Of a DNA stretch of 64,000 bases, positions 17,406 through 59,098 are shown in pieces. The notes beneath the pieces are model-generated. The model worked only from the letters and a program-made list of their open reading frames with translations, was not told the origin of the DNA and did not search any database. Location: assembly GCA_005223185.1 (NCBI GenBank), contig NJBN01000007.1, positions 64,001-128,000 on the forward strand, given 5' to 3'. Each line of letters opens with the position of its first letter. Within the stretch, counting starts at the first letter, position 1. The position numbers were made by a program, and so were the translations under genes. The stretch is from a candidate division LCP-89 bacterium B3_LCP (GTDB taxonomy: Bacteria > Electryoneota > B3-LCP).

Positions 17406-18776
17406 TCATGGTTGTTGATCGCGATCTAAATGATAGCGGAGCGTCCCCCTGGGAATACCCAGTAGTCGCGCAGCGCGGGTTTTGTTCCCTGCGGTGATTT
17501 CTAATACTTTCTGAATTAACTGACTGTCCACTTTGCGGATGGCGTTATTGCCATCTTTTAGATCGACAGTAAGGTTGATCAGCATACCATCATCTAAGTC
17601 GGTGGTGAGATTGGCGTAAGCTAAGTCAGATGTATCAATTATCGGGTTGTTGCATAGTAACGCCACACGTTCCACGAGGTTTCTAAGTTCTCTAACGTTG
17701 CCGGGCCAGGCATACGACAACAGAACTTCTTCCGCCGCTTTGGTAAATCCACCTAATTTGCGACCCAATTTCCGGCTGAATCGATCCATGAAGAACTTGG
17801 CTAACTGTACAATGTCAGTCTTCCGGTCACGCAGCGGGGGTAGTTCAATATGAGCAACATTAATCCTGTAGTATAAATCACGCCTGAAACGCCCCTCTTC
17901 AACCGCTTCTGCTAAGGAAGTATTGGAAGCAGCGATGACGCGCAAGTCCACCTGATTCAGTTTGGTTCCGCCTACAGGATAGAATTCGCCTTTTTCAAGA
18001 ACCCGCAGAAATTTCACCTGAGCTTCTTCAGATAGTTCGGCAACTTCATCTAAGAAAAGCGTCCCGCCATCCGAACGTTCCAAAAAGCCGATATGACCGC
18101 CCCTGTCGGCGCCCGTAAAAGCTCCCTTTTCGTACCCAAAGAGTTCGCTCTCGATTAAATTCCTGGCAACAGCACCGCAGTTAAGAGCGATAAATGGTTT
18201 GGCGTACCTGGGTGAATAATAATGCAGGTATTCAGCCACCAGTTCCTTACCGGTACCGCTTTCGCCTTCGATAAGGACGGTGATATTGGTCTGAGCGAAA
18301 GTGCGAACCAGCGAGAGGACTTTATTAATTTCCCGGCTGCTGCCGATTATTTTGTCAAATTTATTCTTCTCCATCTGTCGTTTACGCAGCTCCTCGACTT
18401 CCTTGCGCAAAGCCACAGTTTGCATAGCCTTCTGTACCGCCAGTTTCAACTCATCTGTGCTATATGGCTTCTGAATGTAATCGTAAGCGCCTATCTTCAT
18501 GGCTTCCACAGCGCTGGCGATGTTGGCAAATCCGGTTATCATGATGACTAATTGATCCGGATTGTTGTCCTTCACCTGACGGAGTACTTCCAGCCCGTCC
18601 ATGGAACCTAGACGAAGATCCAGAAGAAGCAGATCGTACCGGGCAGCGCTCAACATTTCTAACCCTCTTTCACCACTGTCGGCGGTTTCTACATGGTATT
18701 CGCCGACTTCTAAAATCCGCTTTATGGATCTGCAAATGGTGCTGTCGTCATCGACGACCAGGACTTTCCATTTCAT
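17406..18776 (-). CDS. NtrC-family sigma54-dependent response regulator
   Basis: 456 residues in classical order. Receiver 1-120 (Asp53 in LLLLDLRLGSMDG). AAA+ domain about 143-375 with Walker A GESGTGKE (171-178), the sigma54-contacting GAFTGA loop (218-223), Walker B GGTLFLDEVAEL, and arginine-finger region FRRDLYYRINV. C-terminal Fis-type helix-turn-helix (about 425-452: GNKTRAARLLGIPRGTLRYH). All elements for activating sigma54 RNA polymerase are present. It follows the kinase 18780-19895 by 3 bp, so they form an NtrB/NtrC-like pair. Likely targets include the three sigma54-type promoters in this window (inference). Confidence 0.95.
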   Translation of the reverse strand: MKWKVLVVDDDSTICRSIKRILEVGEYHVETADSGERGLEMLSAARYDLLLLDLRLGSMDGLEVLRQVKDNNPDQLVIMITGFANIASAVEAMKIGAYDYIQKPYSTDELKLAVQKAMQTVALRKEVEELRKRQMEKNKFDKIIGSSREINKVLSLVRTFAQTNITVLIEGESGTGKELVAEYLHYYSPRYAKPFIALNCGAVARNLIESELFGYEKGAFTGADRGGHIGFLERSDGGTLFLDEVAELSEEAQVKFLRVLEKGEFYPVGGTKLNQVDLRVIAASNTSLAEAVEEGRFRRDLYYRINVAHIELPPLRDRKTDIVQLAKFFMDRFSRKLGRKLGGFTKAAEEVLLSYAWPGNVRELRNLVERVALLCNNPIIDTSDLAYANLTTDLDDGMLINLTVDLKDGNNAIRKVDSQLIQKVLEITAGNKTRAARLLGIPRGTLRYHLDRDQQP

Positions 18777-41926: not shown

Positions 41927-41976
41927 GTGGGCCCAGTAGGACTCGAACCTACGACCGACGGATTATGAGTCCGTTG
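41927..41976 (-). pseudogene. Partial tRNA(CAT): 3' half only (att-like repeat)
   Basis: Fifty bases identical to 43941-43990, i.e. the tRNA from the base of the anticodon stem to the 3' end plus two bases. The D arm and 5' acceptor strand are missing, so it cannot be a functional tRNA. Break at the anticodon stem is the usual edge of a tyrosine-recombinase attachment site. Confidence 0.85.
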
Positions 41977-42034
41977 TCTTTGTGCGGGAAATTGCCCTAA
42001 AATGTACCTCGTGCAAGGTTTTTGCAAGGTAGCT

Positions 42035-51423: not shown

Positions 51424-52271
51424 TTGGTTTCGTCGAATTGTGAGGGAGGCGAACCCTTCCAGGGTTCGGCGATAGAAACGGTACCGATTTGTTCTCCCAA
51501 AAATCGCTGTCCTAAATCTTCGAAGCGACGGGGCAAATCGCTCACGTAGAAATTTCGTTGGGGATCGGGATCGGAACTCAGCATATCTTGCGCCGTCATC
51601 AGAGCGGCAACGTCCTTAGCTGTTTCCAGAGCGGAATCGACCATAGTCACCTCATCACCCAAGATATCCTGAAGCAGCGGTTTTAATAGAGGGTAGTGCG
51701 TGCATCCTAATATGAGTGTATCGATGTTCTCCAAAAGGAGCGGTTGCAGGTATTTTTCTGCAATTAATTTCGGTATTTCACCCTCAGTCCATCCTTCTTC
51801 TGCCAAAGGCACAAACAGTGGACAAGAAGTAACATGGACTTGTATGTCAGGGTCGATGCGATGGATTTCCTTTTGGTAGCTTTTAGAATCCACAGTTGCC
51901 TGCGTGCCGATAACACCGACAATGCCCCTTTGGGTCGATTCAGCAGCGGCTCTTGCGCCGGGTTTTATCACGCCAACAACAGGTATTTGTAAATATCTAT
52001 CAAGCTCATCTAAAGCTATCGCAGAAGCGGTATTGCAGGCAGCGACAATCAGCTTTACACCGTGCCATAACAGGAATAAGCAATCTTCCCAGGTGAATTC
52101 ACGCACGATTCGATCTGATTTGGTACCGTAGGGAACTCGGGCAGTATCACCAAAATAGACGATGGATTCCTCAGGGAGTAGTTTGATTATCTGACGCGCT
52201 ACGGTGAGACCACCTACTCCGGAATCGAAAATGCCGATGGGTTGGGGTTTGTGTTCTGAGGATGTATTCAT
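51420..52271 (-). CDS. murI: Glutamate racemase
   Basis: 283 residues. Motifs IGIFDSGVGGLTVARQI, YFGDTARVPYG, first catalytic Cys in VAACNTASA and the second in LILGCTHYPLL. Cofactor-independent enzyme making D-glutamate for peptidoglycan. Lies 60 bp after an N-acetylmuramoyl-alanine amidase and overlaps folC. Confidence 0.96.
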   Translation of the reverse strand: MNTSSEHKPQPIGIFDSGVGGLTVARQIIKLLPEESIVYFGDTARVPYGTKSDRIVREFTWEDCLFLLWHGVKLIVAACNTASAIALDELDRYLQIPVVGVIKPGARAAAESTQRGIVGVIGTQATVDSKSYQKEIHRIDPDIQVHVTSCPLFVPLAEEGWTEGEIPKLIAEKYLQPLLLENIDTLILGCTHYPLLKPLLQDILGDEVTMVDSALETAKDVAALMTAQDMLSSDPDPQRNFYVSDLPRRFEDLGQRFLGEQIGTVSIAEPWKGSPPSQFDETK

Positions 52272-52331
52272 GGTTTAAGTCGAGATATATCAAAGTACTA
52301 ACTTGATTCCCGATCGGGGTCGGGAATGACA

Positions 52332-53876
52332 TTAGGGTAATCGTTCTTGCTGCTTTTTAAATTCTATAACACTGTCGAATATGGCTTGGGCTATTTTCTG
52401 GCGGAACTTCTTGGATTTTAAGAGCTTTTCCTCTCTCTTGTTGGATATGAATGAGGTTTCAAACAGGATTGCCGGCATGGAAGCTCCGATCAGAACGTAA
52501 AAGCCCGCCTGATCGACACCGCGGTCGCGCAGTTTGGTTTGGAGTCTGGTATTTTTCTGAACTATCGACGCCAAAGCTTCACTTTCACGAGCGAATTCAG
52601 CTTGCGCCATGGCTAACAATATGTAATTTTCCTCAGTCAAATCCTGATACATATTCCGGGATTCTTCATACCTGATTACGGAATTCTCCCGCAATGCCAC
52701 ATCCATGGCTCGCTCGCTTTTTGCCGGTTTTAATATGTAGGTTTCACATCCTGAAGCGCTTTTATATGAGGAAGCATTGCAGTGGAGTGATATGAACAGC
52801 TTTCCTCCTGACTGGTTAGCGAACTTGGTTCTGTCTTTCAGGGCGATAAAACGGTCATCATCGCGCGTCAGCAGGACTTTAAGATCGGTTTTCTTCTCGA
52901 TAAGTTTTTTCAACCGCAGAGCTATATCTAATACGACTGTCTTCTCTTTCAGACCTGAGGGACCGATAGCTCCGGGGTCTTTCCCACCGTGCCCCGGGTC
53001 AATTACCACACAGTCAATCTTCCATTGTTCGGCTTCCTGCTGAAGTTTCCGCTGTATTTCAGCATCAGTCATGGAAATAGCGGCACCTCCTTCAGGTGGT
53101 ATAATCTTCGTTACCAGCTTGATTACGAACTGATAGGGTTCTTCTTCCCACCAAACTGAATGCTCTAAGATGCTTTCAGAGAATTTGAAGGTGAGCTGCA
53201 CCGATTCAGGTAATTCATCCACTATAAGTTCTTCGACGACGCCACCTACATCGGCAGCTTCCAGAGCTTTGAGGTTCACCTTTGCATTTAGCAGAGTGAT
53301 ACTCATGCGATCATCGCGCAGAGAAGTGCCGGAAGTTTCAAATTTCTCCGAACAGAATATTCTAACTAAAGTGCCGTTCTCCTTCAGATCATAGGTTATG
53401 CCGTACACGTCGTAATCGGAGGGCCATACTATAATAGTCCATATATAGCGGTCGTATTCGATCCGGGCGGGATAGATATCATTTAATATGTCAAGCAGGG
53501 CATCTAAAGGAGCCCAATAGGCTTCATCCTGTAGAACGACTTCGCCAGGGAGTTGTACAGCTTCGTCACCAACCACAGCGAAGGCGTTGTCGGCGGTCCA
53601 TTTCAGTTTAATAGACCCTATCGAGTACTGCAGCTTGTTTTTCTCGGTATTGACAAATGTCCCTATGTTGAGGGTCCGGGCTAAGTCATTCAGATTAACG
53701 TAAAGCAAGTCTCCTGACTGTTTTACGTTAATCTCACTATCTGATGAACCGCCGGTTGGAAACCTGACGGTAATCTTGTCAGCAGCAGAGGTAATTCCAG
53801 TGCAGGAGGCAAGCAGGCAGGTGAGGAGAAATAAAATAATTGTGTAGCGAATAGCAACTCTCATAGGGTAAGGCAT
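52332..53876 (-). CDS. N-acetylmuramoyl-L-alanine amidase (AmiABC type), lipoprotein-like
   Basis: 514 residues. N-terminal signal ends in LLTCLLASC, a lipobox. Residues about 35-150 form a copper amine oxidase-N-like/AMIN-type module (LYVNLNDLARTLNIG), 150-255 an AMIN-like domain. The Amidase_3 domain (about 285-510) shows zinc ligands in VVIDPGHGGKDPGA and LFISLHCNAS, Glu in LKEKTVVLDIALRL, and catalytic Glu in PAILFETSFISN. Cleaves the stem peptide from MurNAc in the periplasm, often for cell separation. ATG 53864 is an alternative start. Confidence 0.92.
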   Translation of the reverse strand: MPYPMRVAIRYTIILFLLTCLLASCTGITSAADKITVRFPTGGSSDSEINVKQSGDLLYVNLNDLARTLNIGTFVNTEKNKLQYSIGSIKLKWTADNAFAVVGDEAVQLPGEVVLQDEAYWAPLDALLDILNDIYPARIEYDRYIWTIIVWPSDYDVYGITYDLKENGTLVRIFCSEKFETSGTSLRDDRMSITLLNAKVNLKALEAADVGGVVEELIVDELPESVQLTFKFSESILEHSVWWEEEPYQFVIKLVTKIIPPEGGAAISMTDAEIQRKLQQEAEQWKIDCVVIDPGHGGKDPGAIGPSGLKEKTVVLDIALRLKKLIEKKTDLKVLLTRDDDRFIALKDRTKFANQSGGKLFISLHCNASSYKSASGCETYILKPAKSERAMDVALRENSVIRYEESRNMYQDLTEENYILLAMAQAEFARESEALASIVQKNTRLQTKLRDRGVDQAGFYVLIGASMPAILFETSFISNKREEKLLKSKKFRQKIAQAIFDSVIEFKKQQERLP

Positions 53877-53973
53877 TTCGATACAGAACTCATTCGGTGC
53901 TGTAAGTATATTAACTCTTTTATAAATTGGTGTATCATCATTATTATTAAGACATTACACAGATTTTATCAGT

Positions 53974-53989
53974 TGGCATATTCTTTGCT
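53974..53989 (+). promoter_or_regulatory. Sigma54 promoter of the TonB-C gene
   Basis: TGGCATATTCTTTGCT: GG (53975-53976) and GC (53987-53988) separated by exactly 10 bases, with TGGCA and TTGCT elements. Predicted start near 54000, about 28 bp before the ATG at 54029. Confidence 0.72.
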
Positions 53990-54028
53990 TTTCGTTTTAA
54001 TCAGCACGAAATAATAGGAGTCATAATC

Positions 54029-54481
54029 ATGAAGAAGACGATATTCTGGATCACCATATTTATCCTGAGCACTGCGGTGATGGTGGTGATTACAGAAGCA
54101 GGCAATACAGATGCGACCTTCGAACCAGCATCTGCAACATACATACCACCAACATTAGAAACCAGCGTTAAGCCGGAACCGGTTTCCTACGCGCCCGGTC
54201 GTTATATTGAAGGATACGTAACCGTAGAAATCAAGGTAGGCGCCAGCGGAGACGTAGAAGGCGTCAAGGTGCTCTACAGGACATCGAAACTGGCAGTGAA
54301 ATCGGCTATCCGGGCAATAGAACAGTGGCATTTCAAACCGGCTATACTAAATGATGAACCCATTGGGGTATATGTTGCCTATTCCGTACCGTTCGGCAAT
54401 AACCTACAGATCTTTGCCAATGATAACTACGCTGATCGCATTTTAGATCCCGCTACTAATGAACAAATTACCATGAGATAA
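54029..54481 (+). CDS. TonB C-terminal domain protein
   Basis: 150 residues: N-terminal membrane/signal helix (4-24), short Pro-rich part (PPTLETSVKPEPV), then a TonB_C domain (about 60-135: GYVTVEIKVGASGDVEGVKV ... AIRAIEQWHFKPAILNDEPI). Too short for full TonB spanning the periplasm, so it may be a TonB-like adaptor or a secreted TonB-C protein. AGGAG precedes the ATG. Expression is probably sigma54-dependent given its promoter, unusual for this family. Monocistronic with its own terminator. Confidence 0.8.
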   Translation: MKKTIFWITIFILSTAVMVVITEAGNTDATFEPASATYIPPTLETSVKPEPVSYAPGRYIEGYVTVEIKVGASGDVEGVKVLYRTSKLAVKSAIRAIEQWHFKPAILNDEPIGVYVAYSVPFGNNLQIFANDNYADRILDPATNEQITMR

Positions 54482-54514
54482 TTTCGCACCAAGCCTCAAA
54501 GGAGCGAGATACAA

Positions 54515-54544
54515 GGGTCCGTCCACATTGGGCGGGCTCTTTCC
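54515..54544 (+). terminator. Terminator of the TonB-C gene
   Basis: GTCCGTCC (54517-54524) / GGGCGGGC (54530-54537) stem with two G-U pairs in RNA, followed by TCTTTCC. Confidence 0.65.
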
Positions 54545-54815
54545 ATTATGATCTGAGATTGCTTCTTCATCCGTCAGCTGACTAATTCCTCGTCCCGAAG
54601 GGACCCCTACGGGGCAATGACCTGTAAAGATTCTTTTGGGACAGCCCCTATAGAATTATTCAAGGATAGATGTATTTCCTGCTGTATCATTTGGAAGCTC
54701 AGACGAATGGCAGTACAGCGAAACGGGACATGCGGGGGCAATAGGGGGTGTTCAAAACGTTATTATCTTACTGCAATATATTGTAATATAAAGTGTTATC
54801 ACTTATCGATGAACA
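54545..54815. other. 271-bp gap upstream of small RNA promoter
   Basis: Holds the palindromic TCCCGAAGGGA and CCCCTACGGGG elements (54592-54617) and an A+T-rich dyad CAATATATTG (54774-54783) about 60 bases before the predicted sRNA start, a possible activator site. No gene. Confidence 0.4.
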
Positions 54816-54831
54816 TGGCACGGAGCTTGCT
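54816..54831 (+). promoter_or_regulatory. Sigma54 promoter with no downstream gene
   Basis: TGGCACGGAGCTTGCT, a near-consensus -24/-12 site (TGGCACG-N4-TTGCT) with GG at 54817-54818 and GC at 54829-54830. Predicted transcription start about 54842. Confidence 0.8.
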
Positions 54832-54841
54832 TTATATCTCT

Positions 54842-54953
54842 ACAGAGTAGATATTTAGTAGATTTGAAATATACCAGATAGATTTACCCTCGCGTCAAGC
54901 CCTCCTCAACGAGCGAGCGAATGAGTCCGCCAAACGGCGGACTTGTTCTTTTT
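54842..54953 (+). ncRNA. Candidate sigma54-dependent small RNA (about 110 nt)
   Basis: A free-standing unit: sigma54 promoter at 54816-54831, no ORF, and a strong terminator at 54924-54953. The body holds TCTACAGAGTAGA (small hairpin), an unstructured A+T-rich stretch and CCCTCCTCAACGAGCGAGCG, whose CCTCC could pair with Shine-Dalgarno sequences. The neighbouring MltB gene converges from the right. Unknown family; anti-RBS function is inference. Confidence 0.6.
54924..54953 (+). terminator. Terminator of the candidate small RNA
   Basis: AGTCCGCC (54924-54931) / GGCGGACT (54936-54943), loop AAAC, then TGTTCTTTTT. On the minus strand the stem is not followed by T, so it serves the plus strand. 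Confidence 0.85.
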
Positions 54954-55836
54954 AGCCGGATTTTGCACCGGGCATATCTTCTTTTCCTGAAGTTGGTATT
55001 TCTTTCAGTCTGTGAGCGTACTCTATAATGCAGTCAACGTAGGCACTGCTGGGATTGTACCTGTGGATAGCTCTTCGCATCGAATTTTCACTGATTCCCC
55101 ACCCCGATTTCTTCAGATAACAGGCGATACTCGCAACAGCATCCTGCAGGTTATATGGGTCTATCACAGCGTCGCCGTTACCATCCCGAGCGTAAGACAG
55201 GTAACTGGAAGGGAGGAACTGTGCCCATCCGAAAGCACCAGCCCAGGATCCGTTAATTTCCAGGGGATTCCAGTTGTTAACTTCGCATGCCTCGAAAAAA
55301 CTGGTCAACTCGCGATAAGCCCATTTGGATCTCCTGTAAGCCCTCTTCTTCAATTTAGCAGTTGTGATTGTGCGCGAAGTATCTGCAATAGGCTGCCAGA
55401 AGCGTGGATTGTTTAAAGAACTTATGGTGGCGAAGACAGCCAGAACCGGTATCTTTCCTGCTCTTCTGCCTAAGTTCGATTCAACCTTTAAGATAGCAAC
55501 GATGATTTCTGCAGGGATTTTGCTGTCTTTTAGTGTTGCATCAAGTTCTGTTTTCTTAGTCTGCAAGAAGCGACGGCCTTCTTCGATCTGTATATCCACA
55601 AGAAACCCCTGGTAATCTGCGGGATTGTTCCGGGGAATCATGTTCTTGGAGACTATTCTATCGACGAAGTGGATGCGGCTGTCCTGAAAGAGAGTTACAA
55701 CTTGAAGTGAATCTCCTCCATCACTGATAATCTTTGTCACTAATGACTCAAAGGCGGGGTCGACACCGTGAGGTTTTGCGGATAGTGAAACATAACAAAA
55801 AACATGGATCAGGAAAGCTAAGAGGAATGTTTTCAT
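54952..55836 (-). CDS. Lytic murein transglycosylase, MltB type
   Basis: 294 residues with a signal peptide (1-20). Catalytic Glu in AILKVESNLGRRAG, then PVLAVFATISSLN, WAYRELTSFFEACEVNNW, SWAGAFGWAQFLPSSYLSYA and DAVIDPYNLQDAVASIACYL, all MltB/SLT_2 hallmarks. It cleaves the glycan strand to 1,6-anhydroMurNAc in the periplasm. The start overlaps the stop of the HEPN-like gene by one base, so they form an operon with the receiver 56759-57148. Confidence 0.92.
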   Translation of the reverse strand: MKTFLLAFLIHVFCYVSLSAKPHGVDPAFESLVTKIISDGGDSLQVVTLFQDSRIHFVDRIVSKNMIPRNNPADYQGFLVDIQIEEGRRFLQTKKTELDATLKDSKIPAEIIVAILKVESNLGRRAGKIPVLAVFATISSLNNPRFWQPIADTSRTITTAKLKKRAYRRSKWAYRELTSFFEACEVNNWNPLEINGSWAGAFGWAQFLPSSYLSYARDGNGDAVIDPYNLQDAVASIACYLKKSGWGISENSMRRAIHRYNPSSAYVDCIIEYAHRLKEIPTSGKEDMPGAKSG

Positions 55837-56762
55837 CAGATAGCTTCTTCCACAAGTACCTTATCTCGCTGGGCGGCATACTTCAAATCATTATAGGAGG
55901 TGATGGTTTCGATTATCACCTGAAAAGCTTCAGCGCTGGTTAGATCAGGCGAATCCGTCTTAGATTTCTTTCCATGAACGATGCGGTTGCGCTGTTCGGC
56001 TAAATCAACCAGTTTTAAAGTCAGGTCTTCCGGGAGTTTGCCGATCTGCCCTTCGATCATCCTTATCTTGGCACGCCGATCACTGATCTTCCAACTCCTG
56101 GTAGCGGCTTTTACATTATTTTCAGTTAAACCCAGTTGTCCCAGTAAGGAATCAAGAAAGAAATCGAAGGCAATCTGCAGCATAACCAGACCGGCGCGGT
56201 CTTCAGATTTCAGAATCAGATCGGCTGCATTCTGGAGGATGTTGATCCAGATCGGTTTTTCCTGTTCACCAATTTCCCCGACTGACATCCAGCGAATGCG
56301 CTGGCGCGGAGTAGCTTTGACGGGATCGAAAGTGCGCGACAACAGAATAAAATTATCTGTACTTATAGAGAGGGCGGCTACATATATATTTTCCAGGACG
56401 AGATCTCGGACAGGTTGAATCTTGCGATTGAAGAAGAACAGTTCGGGAGGACGGTTGTAGGTAATACCGTAGGAAATGAGCTGTACATCATCAGGTATGA
56501 CCTGTATTTCCCCTCCGACTGTGTATCCCGGCGCTATGGGGATGGCATGAATGGGATCGATGAAGATACCCGCATTATTCTTAAAATGATGCAGAAAAGC
56601 GTCAACGTAGATAAATTCATATTCGCAGATCGGACAAGGCACGCGTGTTTCCAAGTTTTCACACGCCTGACTCGAAATTTCGCCACAATGCGGACAACAT
56701 ATAGCCGAAATCGAGAAGAAGAGGTTGGATGCTATAGGGGGGGAATTGCTATTTATATTCAC
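55836..56762 (-). CDS. Zinc-ribbon protein with HEPN-like C-terminal domain
   Basis: 308 residues. N-terminal zinc ribbon CPHC (23-26) ... CPIC (43-46). The C-terminal part (about 185-300) is helical and holds RNRIVHGKK at 258-266, i.e. Arg258-Asn259-x3-His263, the Rx4-6H motif of HEPN ribonuclease or nucleotide-binding domains, after helix LVMLQIAFDFFLDSLLGQL. The middle region (65-180) is unrecognised. HEPN domains of this type appear in RNA-targeting defence proteins but also in general factors. Coupled to a receiver gene (ATGA overlap) and MltB, an odd combination. Confidence 0.65.
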   Translation of the reverse strand: MNINSNSPPIASNLFFSISAICCPHCGEISSQACENLETRVPCPICEYEFIYVDAFLHHFKNNAGIFIDPIHAIPIAPGYTVGGEIQVIPDDVQLISYGITYNRPPELFFFNRKIQPVRDLVLENIYVAALSISTDNFILLSRTFDPVKATPRQRIRWMSVGEIGEQEKPIWINILQNAADLILKSEDRAGLVMLQIAFDFFLDSLLGQLGLTENNVKAATRSWKISDRRAKIRMIEGQIGKLPEDLTLKLVDLAEQRNRIVHGKKSKTDSPDLTSAEAFQVIIETITSYNDLKYAAQRDKVLVEEAI

Positions 56763-57148
56763 TGGGCTAAGAATTTAGTTATTTCGTTCTGGAGATCTTT
56801 TACCAAATACGGTTTCTGCAGGAGACCAACAACATGACCGCTTTTTTGAATCTCTTCCATTTCCTGCGGTGGTCCCCAACCGGTTGATATAATAGTCTTT
56901 ACGTCCGGGTTGACTGCCCAGAGTTTCTCCAATATTTCCATTCCGCTAATACCGGGCATGTGCCAATCCAGTATGACCAGCGCTACCTCATTCTTATTAT
57001 CCTGATAGAGCTGTACTGCTTCCTGCCCATCGGCAGCTAAGATGGTTTCATAGCCCAATACGCGTAAAATATCCTGCCCCATTAAGCGAATAACGTCTTC
57101 ATCATCTACCAGCAAAATGGTGGCTTTAGTTTGATCATCCGTTGTCAT
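56759..57148 (-). CDS. Single-domain response regulator
   Basis: 129-residue receiver: ILLVDDEDVIRLMGQDILR, phosphoacceptor Asp in LVILDWHMPGISG, Thr in TIISTGWGPP, Lys in LLQKPYL. This form, with 'LDWHMPG', is common for receivers attached to hybrid kinases in FCB and delta groups. First gene of the operon with the HEPN-like and MltB genes. Its partner kinase is not adjacent. Confidence 0.92.
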   Translation of the reverse strand: MTTDDQTKATILLVDDEDVIRLMGQDILRVLGYETILAADGQEAVQLYQDNKNEVALVILDWHMPGISGMEILEKLWAVNPDVKTIISTGWGPPQEMEEIQKSGHVVGLLQKPYLVKDLQNEITKFLAQ

Positions 57149-57235
57149 GGTATCCTGTCAGTCTTGTATTGCGACATATTAACATAAAGAAATAAATCAT
57201 TCAAAGCAATGCAAAATGGAATAATTATGACGCCT

Positions 57236-59098
57236 TTAGCGGGAAAGGCTATAGACGGCTGAAAAAGTCCTGTAAGCTTGCCGACCGGACGCTCTGCCGG
57301 ATTGATCCCATAAGGCGTAAAACCCAAGTCCTCCCCACTCCCTGTGAGAAGTATTCAGGGACAGCTCCAGGACAACACCCTCTCCCCAGAGTGGTCTGAA
57401 GCGGATAGTGCGCGATTGATCGTATTGTGCCCAGTAGAGTCGTAAGGCATAATCACCGGCATTGTAGTAGCCTGCCTGGCAGCGGGTTTTAAGATGAAAT
57501 AATGCATGATTATTTAATACTACTGTCCCGTCAATTCCCAATAGCGCTCCCACGCCTTCAGCTTGTTTTGACGTACAAGCTTGAGAAAATGCTCTCAGAT
57601 ATCCCTTCCCCTTCAGTTTTGTTTTCACCGATCCGTACATACGCCAGTGACTGGTCTTCATCGATGATTCTATATCCTCTTCCTGAGTCCAGCGTGATCT
57701 TACCATCATTTGCAGTATGTGTGGGAATTTCTGCCCATAGCGCAGAGAAAAATCGCTTCCACCCCAGCTCTCATCTGAAGTTCTCCGGGGAAATCTATAA
57801 AGATGGACGAAGCCGGTTAGTTCGCTTAAATGTGATACGGCAATAATGTGGGAATATAAGCCCTGACGGTTATTTAATTTTCCTTGATCGAAATCCAGCC
57901 CGGATGCCAGCGGAGCGAAATAATCGGAATCAATATGATAGATCGCCAGAGCGCTGCGCAGCCACTTACTTCGCGACTGCACGTCAGCGATACCAGCAAG
58001 GTTGCCTCTGTTATCCGATGCAGTTTCAAGCATGGAAGTCAGATCGGTATCCCTGTATTTAATATGAAAGCTACCAGCAGAAACGGACGAAAGATCTTCA
58101 TTACCAAGGGCGAAAGGATGATCCCAGAGTAATCCGGCTACAGTAGCGCCCGCTTCGAGATTAGCATGAGGTATCGACCAATTCAGGTGAGCGCCCCAGG
58201 CATCTTCTTGACAAGCATCCTGATGTGAAATTTCGGTGGCAGTTCTGTGTAAACCTGATAGGTAGAAGGAAGTGATTTTATCATCCGAATTCAGATAGGC
58301 GTCCCGCATGCGGGATGAAAACCAGGCATCAACTTCCAGAGGTTTCAGTATCTTATATGACAGCCCAACTCCTCGCAGAGCGATATTTTCATCCCACGAC
58401 GAGTATCTCCTCAATCCATTGGGCCAGGATTTTAGATTCCCTTCTGCTATACTTGTCAAGCCCATATTACGGCGAGTCCTGATGACCAATCCATGATTAA
58501 ATCCTAATACGTAATCCCCGATAAAGATGTCTCCACCTGTATTTCGCAAGGGAATTTTCATGCTGAATGAAGAATGATCCCAGAACTGTTCTTCACCTGG
58601 GTCCTTTTCCATCCCCATTCCGATCTCGATGCCACGGTCACTTTTTACCGTTAGCTTCTGTCCCAACCGGCAGGGGCTCTTATCAACGTTGTCGCTTAAG
58701 GGATCGTCCTGTTGATATTTGATCAGATATTTTATATCGGTCTTCTCTTCAGGGGCTTGCACATAGCAGTATTCTCCCAGAACTCTGAAGGTTCCTTCGT
58801 CTATTCCGGGTATATTTCGGATATCGTCTATACTTATGAAAGAACCGATGAGTTGTCTATAGGCTATGATAGCCAGTGCCGCAGTTTTGTTTAACAATGG
58901 TACGGTTAAGAGTTCTTCTAAGTCCGCAGTATTAAGATCAATTTTATCACGGTGTGGAATATCCACTTGTTCCCCGGATTCAAGGCGCCAAGGGACGGCG
59001 TCAATTTCCGTCTGGGCGTTCAATACCGGAACGTTGGCTGACAAAATTGATATACTGAATACTGTAGTTATCAGAAGATTACGGTGATTCCATAGCAT
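57236..59098 (-). CDS. Outer-membrane beta-barrel protein with N-terminal helix-hairpin-helix
   Basis: 620 residues with a signal peptide (1-28, ends LNAQ). Residues about 50-115 carry two ComEA-like helix-hairpin-helix units (KIDLNTADLEELLTVPLLNK, SIDDIRNIPGIDEGTFRVL), usually double-stranded DNA binding. The rest (150-620) is made of alternating beta strands with aromatic girdles (e.g. YVLGFNHGLVIRTRRN, LSYKILKPLEVDAWFSSRM), typical of a 20-plus-strand barrel. A DNA uptake or docking role is possible but unproven. Overlaps the upstream gene 59071-59880 by 28 bp. Confidence 0.78.
   Translation of the reverse strand: MLWNHRNLLITTVFSISILSANVPVLNAQTEIDAVPWRLESGEQVDIPHRDKIDLNTADLEELLTVPLLNKTAALAIIAYRQLIGSFISIDDIRNIPGIDEGTFRVLGEYCYVQAPEEKTDIKYLIKYQQDDPLSDNVDKSPCRLGQKLTVKSDRGIEIGMGMEKDPGEEQFWDHSSFSMKIPLRNTGGDIFIGDYVLGFNHGLVIRTRRNMGLTSIAEGNLKSWPNGLRRYSSWDENIALRGVGLSYKILKPLEVDAWFSSRMRDAYLNSDDKITSFYLSGLHRTATEISHQDACQEDAWGAHLNWSIPHANLEAGATVAGLLWDHPFALGNEDLSSVSAGSFHIKYRDTDLTSMLETASDNRGNLAGIADVQSRSKWLRSALAIYHIDSDYFAPLASGLDFDQGKLNNRQGLYSHIIAVSHLSELTGFVHLYRFPRRTSDESWGGSDFSLRYGQKFPHILQMMVRSRWTQEEDIESSMKTSHWRMYGSVKTKLKGKGYLRAFSQACTSKQAEGVGALLGIDGTVVLNNHALFHLKTRCQAGYYNAGDYALRLYWAQYDQSRTIRFRPLWGEGVVLELSLNTSHREWGGLGFYALWDQSGRASGRQAYRTFSAVYSLSR

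Follow-up and report, generated by a model that had tools for sequence, protein, structure and literature searches.

Between a gene for a small exported protein with a TonB-C domain and a convergent gene for an MltB-type lytic transglycosylase lies a spacer with signals of its own, and this raises the question of whether it harbours a small RNA gene. A preliminary description had proposed a free-standing, sigma54-driven small RNA at this place. The locus belongs to a stretch of 64,000 nucleotides, analysed as a whole and called the window here, in contig C6 of genome G000 (3.79 Mb, 96% complete). Five further genomes of the same family, every one from a different genus, were used for comparison. 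Relatives of the MltB protein are found on contigs of candidate division LCP-89, a member of the FCB group, and of Candidatus Zixiibacteriota metagenome-assembled genomes. Judged from the sequences, positions 54842-54953 probably encode a small RNA, about 112 nt long and controlled by sigma54, whose 3' half corresponds in free-standing form to a module found in the 3'UTR of TonB-C mRNAs in other genera. The features of the locus are the following.

53974..53989, + strand: sigma54 site TGGCATATTCTTTGCT, about 40 nt upstream of the TonB-C start codon
54029..54481, + strand: gene for a small exported protein with TonB-C domain, 150 aa (PF03544, E=7.6e-10); in relatives its mRNA carries the 3' module
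54481..54541, + strand: TonB-C 3'UTR of the window; its homologous hairpin has a shortened loop, AAGCCTCAA, and the terminator-like stem lacks a good T-run
54816..54831, + strand: sigma54 (-24/-12) promoter TGGCACGGAGCTTGCT, zero mismatches to TGGCACGNNNNTTGCW, predicted +1 at 54842
54842..54888, + strand: 5' part of the predicted small RNA, without open reading frame and without similarity to the TonB-C unit or the locus of relatives
54889..54917, + strand: hairpin 1, stem CTCGC/GCGAG, exposed loop with CCCTCCTCAA (54900-54909), candidate anti-Shine-Dalgarno seed
54919..54953, + strand: intrinsic terminator, 13-pair stem (54919-54948) followed by TTTTT, best-scoring nearby
54952..55836, - strand: convergent MltB-type lytic transglycosylase (PF13406, E=6.1e-45), synteny anchor with orthologs in 5/5 family relatives

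The sigma54 promoter

The site at 54816-54831 had been described as near-consensus and as of a quality rarely reached by chance. It is in fact exact, and the second statement holds as well: G000 has three matches to the strict consensus TGGCACGNNNNTTGCW and none to the reversed pattern, and in six genomes of the family 20 perfect sites stand against two in this control. A looser pattern gives 16 matches in G000 (control: 4). At two mismatches the matches in the window are not above chance (9 versus 7.7 expected), so that it is the perfect match at 54816 that carries the weight. Some perfect sites of the family are located within open reading frames and may be chance; others are found just 5' of genes for HSP20, flagellar rod and exported proteins, and this means that the motif is probably in use in these organisms. 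G000 contains one gene for RpoN and 16 full-length enhancer-binding proteins with sigma54 activator domains. A convincing upstream activator site shared with the small RNA promoter was not found (best p~0.03 among many comparisons).

One of the 16 activators is encoded in the window itself, where its full-length AAA+ domain occupies positions 17844-18350 of the minus strand (G000:C6:81844-82350), and can be considered a candidate activator. Among relatives from several genera, at the loci L026, L027, L037 and L040, an HSP20-like gene follows a perfect sigma54 site at a distance of about 40-60 nt, which suggests a sigma54-dependent heat-shock or stress regulon in the phylum.

Body, fold and terminator of the predicted RNA

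About 110 nt free of any reading frame had been claimed downstream of the promoter, and indeed no open reading frame of at least 30 aa starts in 54842-54920 on the plus strand. The terminator is as strong as supposed: it is the best of the six terminator-like sites in 52000-58000, a number that is itself not above chance (6 versus 5.6). The predicted fold of the 112-nt RNA (54842-54953) reaches z = -4.2 with none of 200 shuffles equally stable, a stability that stems mostly from the terminator and hairpin 1. The loop of hairpin 1 is unpaired in the predicted folds, and this supports the earlier proposal of a motif able to mask ribosome sites, here the exposed anti-Shine-Dalgarno loop CCCTCCTC. 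Hence -24/-12 promoter, non-coding body and intrinsic terminator, the features of the class of sigma54-dependent small RNAs, are all present. The spacer between the TonB-C gene and the small RNA also contains two small palindromes, GTCCCGAAGGGAC and CCCTACGGGG (54590-54614), which occur as a single copy in the window.

The surroundings are less simple than first described. The terminator ascribed to the TonB-C gene, a stem at about 54513-54541, is followed by TCCATT instead of a proper T-run and is not listed by the terminator scanner, so read-through into the small RNA region is possible. The MltB gene does converge from the right but is not clear of the RNA, since its stop codon is located at 54952-54954 and the T-run of the small RNA thus overlaps the end of the convergent gene. 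To hold that neither signal has any other explanation went too far, as the 3' half of the RNA is homologous to the TonB-C 3'UTR of relatives.

The 3' module in related genera

A DNA search with the 221-bp region gave one convincing foreign match, in G003 (E=1.1e-4 in a whole-genome search), that covers the 3' end only. In G003 and G001, two other genera of the same family, the TonB-C gene is followed by MltB on the opposite strand, and the TonB-C orthologs (60% identity) have the same neighbours. Sigma54 sites, TGGCATAGCCTTTGCA and TGGCACGCCCTTTGCT, are located upstream of TonB-C in these two relatives. Right behind the TonB-C stop codon both show CTCGC..AAGCCTCCTCAA..GCGAGCGA and then a terminator, i.e., a conserved module between the stop codon of the mRNA and its terminator. 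Window positions 54889-54954 align with this 3'UTR from end to end, and the local alignment of the module with the G003 locus scores 50 (shuffle maximum 33). Nothing at the G001 and G003 locus aligns with 54832-54888 or 54546-54815, and thus the 5' half of the RNA (54842-54888) has no detectable conservation in the relatives compared. Concerning the synteny of the unit of promoter, body and terminator, hairpin and terminator are kept in G001 and G003 but the free-standing arrangement is not; it is found in one genome, G000, and both foreign copies used for comparison are 3'UTRs. Orthologs of TonB-C in G009 and G021, from another family, have the upstream sigma54 site but no hairpin.

Identity to window positions 54889-54955 amounts to 51/66 (77%) in G003 and 46/67 (69%) in G001. 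Between G000 and the same two genomes the coding DNA of MltB is 56% identical (third positions 33%) and that of TonB-C 61% (third positions 36%), so the non-coding module is more conserved than the neighbouring coding DNA. Unchanged are the hairpin stem, AAG, the CCTCCTCAA loop and GCGAGCGA, while the flanks of the loop core vary. As hairpin 1 is nearly invariant, covariation is unable to support it; in the terminator stem seven pairs are changed on both sides with pairing kept (four copies), which shows only that a terminator is maintained. A covariance model built from these four copies was run on 39 genomes of the phylum. It finds the module in G001 and G003 but no further copy: only the four build copies exceed 76 bits, and the next best match reaches 36 bits. 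Nine of the lesser matches were read and rejected as further copies; they are other sequences, mostly terminators, in which the loop is absent.

The fourth copy is the tail of the TonB-C gene of the window, in which the hairpin is kept with a U-G pair and the loop is reduced (CCTCAA); this was read from the bases and from a fold of the sequence by itself, since the automatic alignment misplaces that stem. The full-loop version CCCTCCTCAA lies downstream of TonB-C, behind a separate sigma54 promoter.

Proposed function and alternative explanations

We consider it likely that sigma54 polymerase makes a small RNA here and that the 3' module of this RNA is under constraint. An enhancer-binding protein would activate this polymerase at 54816 and an RNA of about 112 nt ending near 54953 would result. 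Its 3' half would consist of the terminator and the hairpin presenting the anti-Shine-Dalgarno loop CCUCCUCAA; the open loop CCCUCCUCAA could pair with ribosome binding sites of the UUGAGGAGG type and so repress translation of target mRNAs. Such an action in trans is somewhat more doubtful than the RNA itself, with chances a little short of even, and with no Hfq found the pairing would need another chaperone or none. In sister genera the module would form the end of the TonB-C mRNA, whereas in G000 the full loop would come from a second, perfect sigma54 promoter, either after duplication of the 3'UTR or after insertion of new promoter-bearing sequence ahead of the module. The promoter type shared with TonB-C may point to an envelope-related response.

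Since both foreign copies are 3'UTRs, the conservation may reflect mRNA stability or termination and not regulation in trans. In its strict form the element would act only in cis, as true terminator and stabiliser of a TonB-C mRNA whose transcription runs past the stem at about 54513-54541, with the sigma54 site at 54816 being incidental. The missing T-run of that stem, its absence from the scanner list and the position of the module at the 3' end of TonB-C in G001 and G003 fit such a role. Yet a perfect and correctly placed upstream sigma54 site is improbable by chance (three per genome, none in the control), and about 407 nt of unconserved spacer separate the TonB-C stop codon from the module, so we regard this reading as quite improbable. 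Even less can be said for pure coincidence, i.e., a spurious sigma54 match beside an ordinary terminator that mainly ends MltB or TonB-C transcription: the number of nearby terminator-like sites equals that of shuffles and the reversed-pattern control predicts about 1 in 10 perfect family sites to be spurious, but the module is conserved in three genera and perfect sites are rare in the genome as a whole, which makes coincidence very improbable.

The strongest competitor, still unlikely, is that the unit is what was left of a second TonB-C unit after tandem duplication and deletion of the coding part, with promoter and 3'UTR producing a functionless transcript. Promoter type and 3' module do match the TonB-C unit, and another perfect sigma54 site in G000 drives a 48-aa open reading frame with a weakly TonB-C-like N-terminus. 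Against this, traces of TonB-C coding sequence in 54546-54888 are not above shuffles in DNA and six-frame comparisons, both promoter and module are undamaged, and the full loop seen in the other genera is still there in the module but not in the TonB-C tail of the window. With neutral positions saturated, a dead copy should have decayed unless the loss was recent. If it is transcribed, the locus is a traceable case of a single element that occurs both as a small RNA gene and as an mRNA 3'UTR, served by the same sigma factor in either form and with no detectable Hfq, and it offers a concrete test of how stand-alone small RNAs split from mRNA tails.

Relation to known small RNAs

Qrr RNAs, with which the candidate had been compared, need Hfq. 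No match to Hfq (PF17209) was found in G000 with control profiles detected, although the assembly is 96% complete and the absent 4% might contain the gene; with Hfq not found, a strict Qrr-like model is inapplicable. The Qrr covariance model of Rfam has no match in 54740-54990 (only two unrelated sub-threshold matches appear at E<=10), and Rfam searches at gathering and permissive thresholds returned nothing relevant. What remains of the comparison is sigma54 control: like the Qrr RNAs of Vibrio, which are free-standing and transcribed by sigma54 with enhancer-binding proteins (PMC10162802), the candidate would be free-standing and under the same kind of control. Elsewhere in the window a tRNA model matches positions 41928-41987 of the minus strand with a score of 30.1 bits along 60 nt, which hardly exceeds the threshold; this may be a degenerate or unusual tRNA.

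Loops of the CcsR RNAs carry an anti-Shine-Dalgarno-like motif. CcsR1-4 of Rhodobacter are four RNAs that processing with RNase E frees from the 3'UTR of ccaF1 (PMC8625941), and they resemble the module in being 3'UTR-derived and located downstream of a small protein gene. GlnZ and SroC are enterobacterial small RNAs from 3'UTRs of sigma54-driven mRNAs (PMC9731577), and the module of G001 and G003 resembles GlnZ in its position in a 3'UTR that would be transcribed from the sigma54 promoter of the parent gene. GlnZ, however, needs RNase E processing and Hfq (PMC9731577), whereas the module of G000 carries a second sigma54 promoter of its own, and Hfq was not found in this genome. For MalH/MicX one genomic place yields a 3'UTR-derived small RNA in one organism and a small RNA with its own promoter in another (PMC9438474), in parallel with a module that is mRNA-derived in relatives and has its own promoter in G000; parent gene and promoter type are different, and for the G000 module the sequence relation is directly visible.

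In rhizobia the hairpin loops of alpha-r14/NfeR1 RNAs expose a CCUCCUC anti-Shine-Dalgarno motif, occlude ribosome binding sites and repress targets; NfeR1 has three hairpins with CCUCCUCCC, with LsrB as its activator and NtrC as its repressor (PMC10746234). The predicted RNA of G000 has one hairpin with CCCUCCUCAA instead of three with CCUCCUCCC, a sigma54 promoter and no Rfam match, and membership in this family was rejected. It fits known kinds of small RNAs (GlnZ, MicX/MalH, CcsR) yet stands outside any named family. We know of no characterised small RNAs in the uncultured lineage of G000.

Possible pairing partners

Auto-regulation, in which the loop would bind the start region of TonB-C, was rejected: for the window and for G003 shuffled sequences pair equally well, and in G001 the signal is weak (9/300 shuffles as good). 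The pattern TGAGGAGG(N)ATG, with 14 occurrences in G000 versus 11 in the control, is barely above control and of no use as a target list. The loop finds a perfect 9-nt complement in the UTR of locus L030, where the energy of the whole duplex is matched by 23/300 shuffles, so that a kissing loop between the two is no more than a lead. Tentatively, and with chances clearly below even, one may think of a new RNA family in a lineage close to LCP-89/Zixibacteria that has two forms served by one sigma factor: a TonB-C mRNA tail in sister genera and a separate sigma54-dependent small RNA in G000, where the tail of the parent gene would have lost part of the seed. Such an RNA would work without Hfq through an anti-Shine-Dalgarno loop, which might also pair with the GAGGAGG loop of the L030 3'UTR.

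The motif TGAGGAGGATTGACA of L030 recurs in G003, where the one locus read (L103) is without such a unit. L030 itself is located outside the window (G000:C4:58784-58799, minus strand) and represents a second orphan perfect sigma54 site, followed by the 48-aa open reading frame (MKDLTLLTITILMISSLVLG...). Behind this frame comes a hairpin, TTGTCA-TGTTTGAGGAGGAT-TGACAA, whose loop is the perfect 9-nt complement of CCTCCTCAA, and then a terminator. The weak resemblance of the N-terminus of the 48-aa peptide is to the TonB-C protein of G003.
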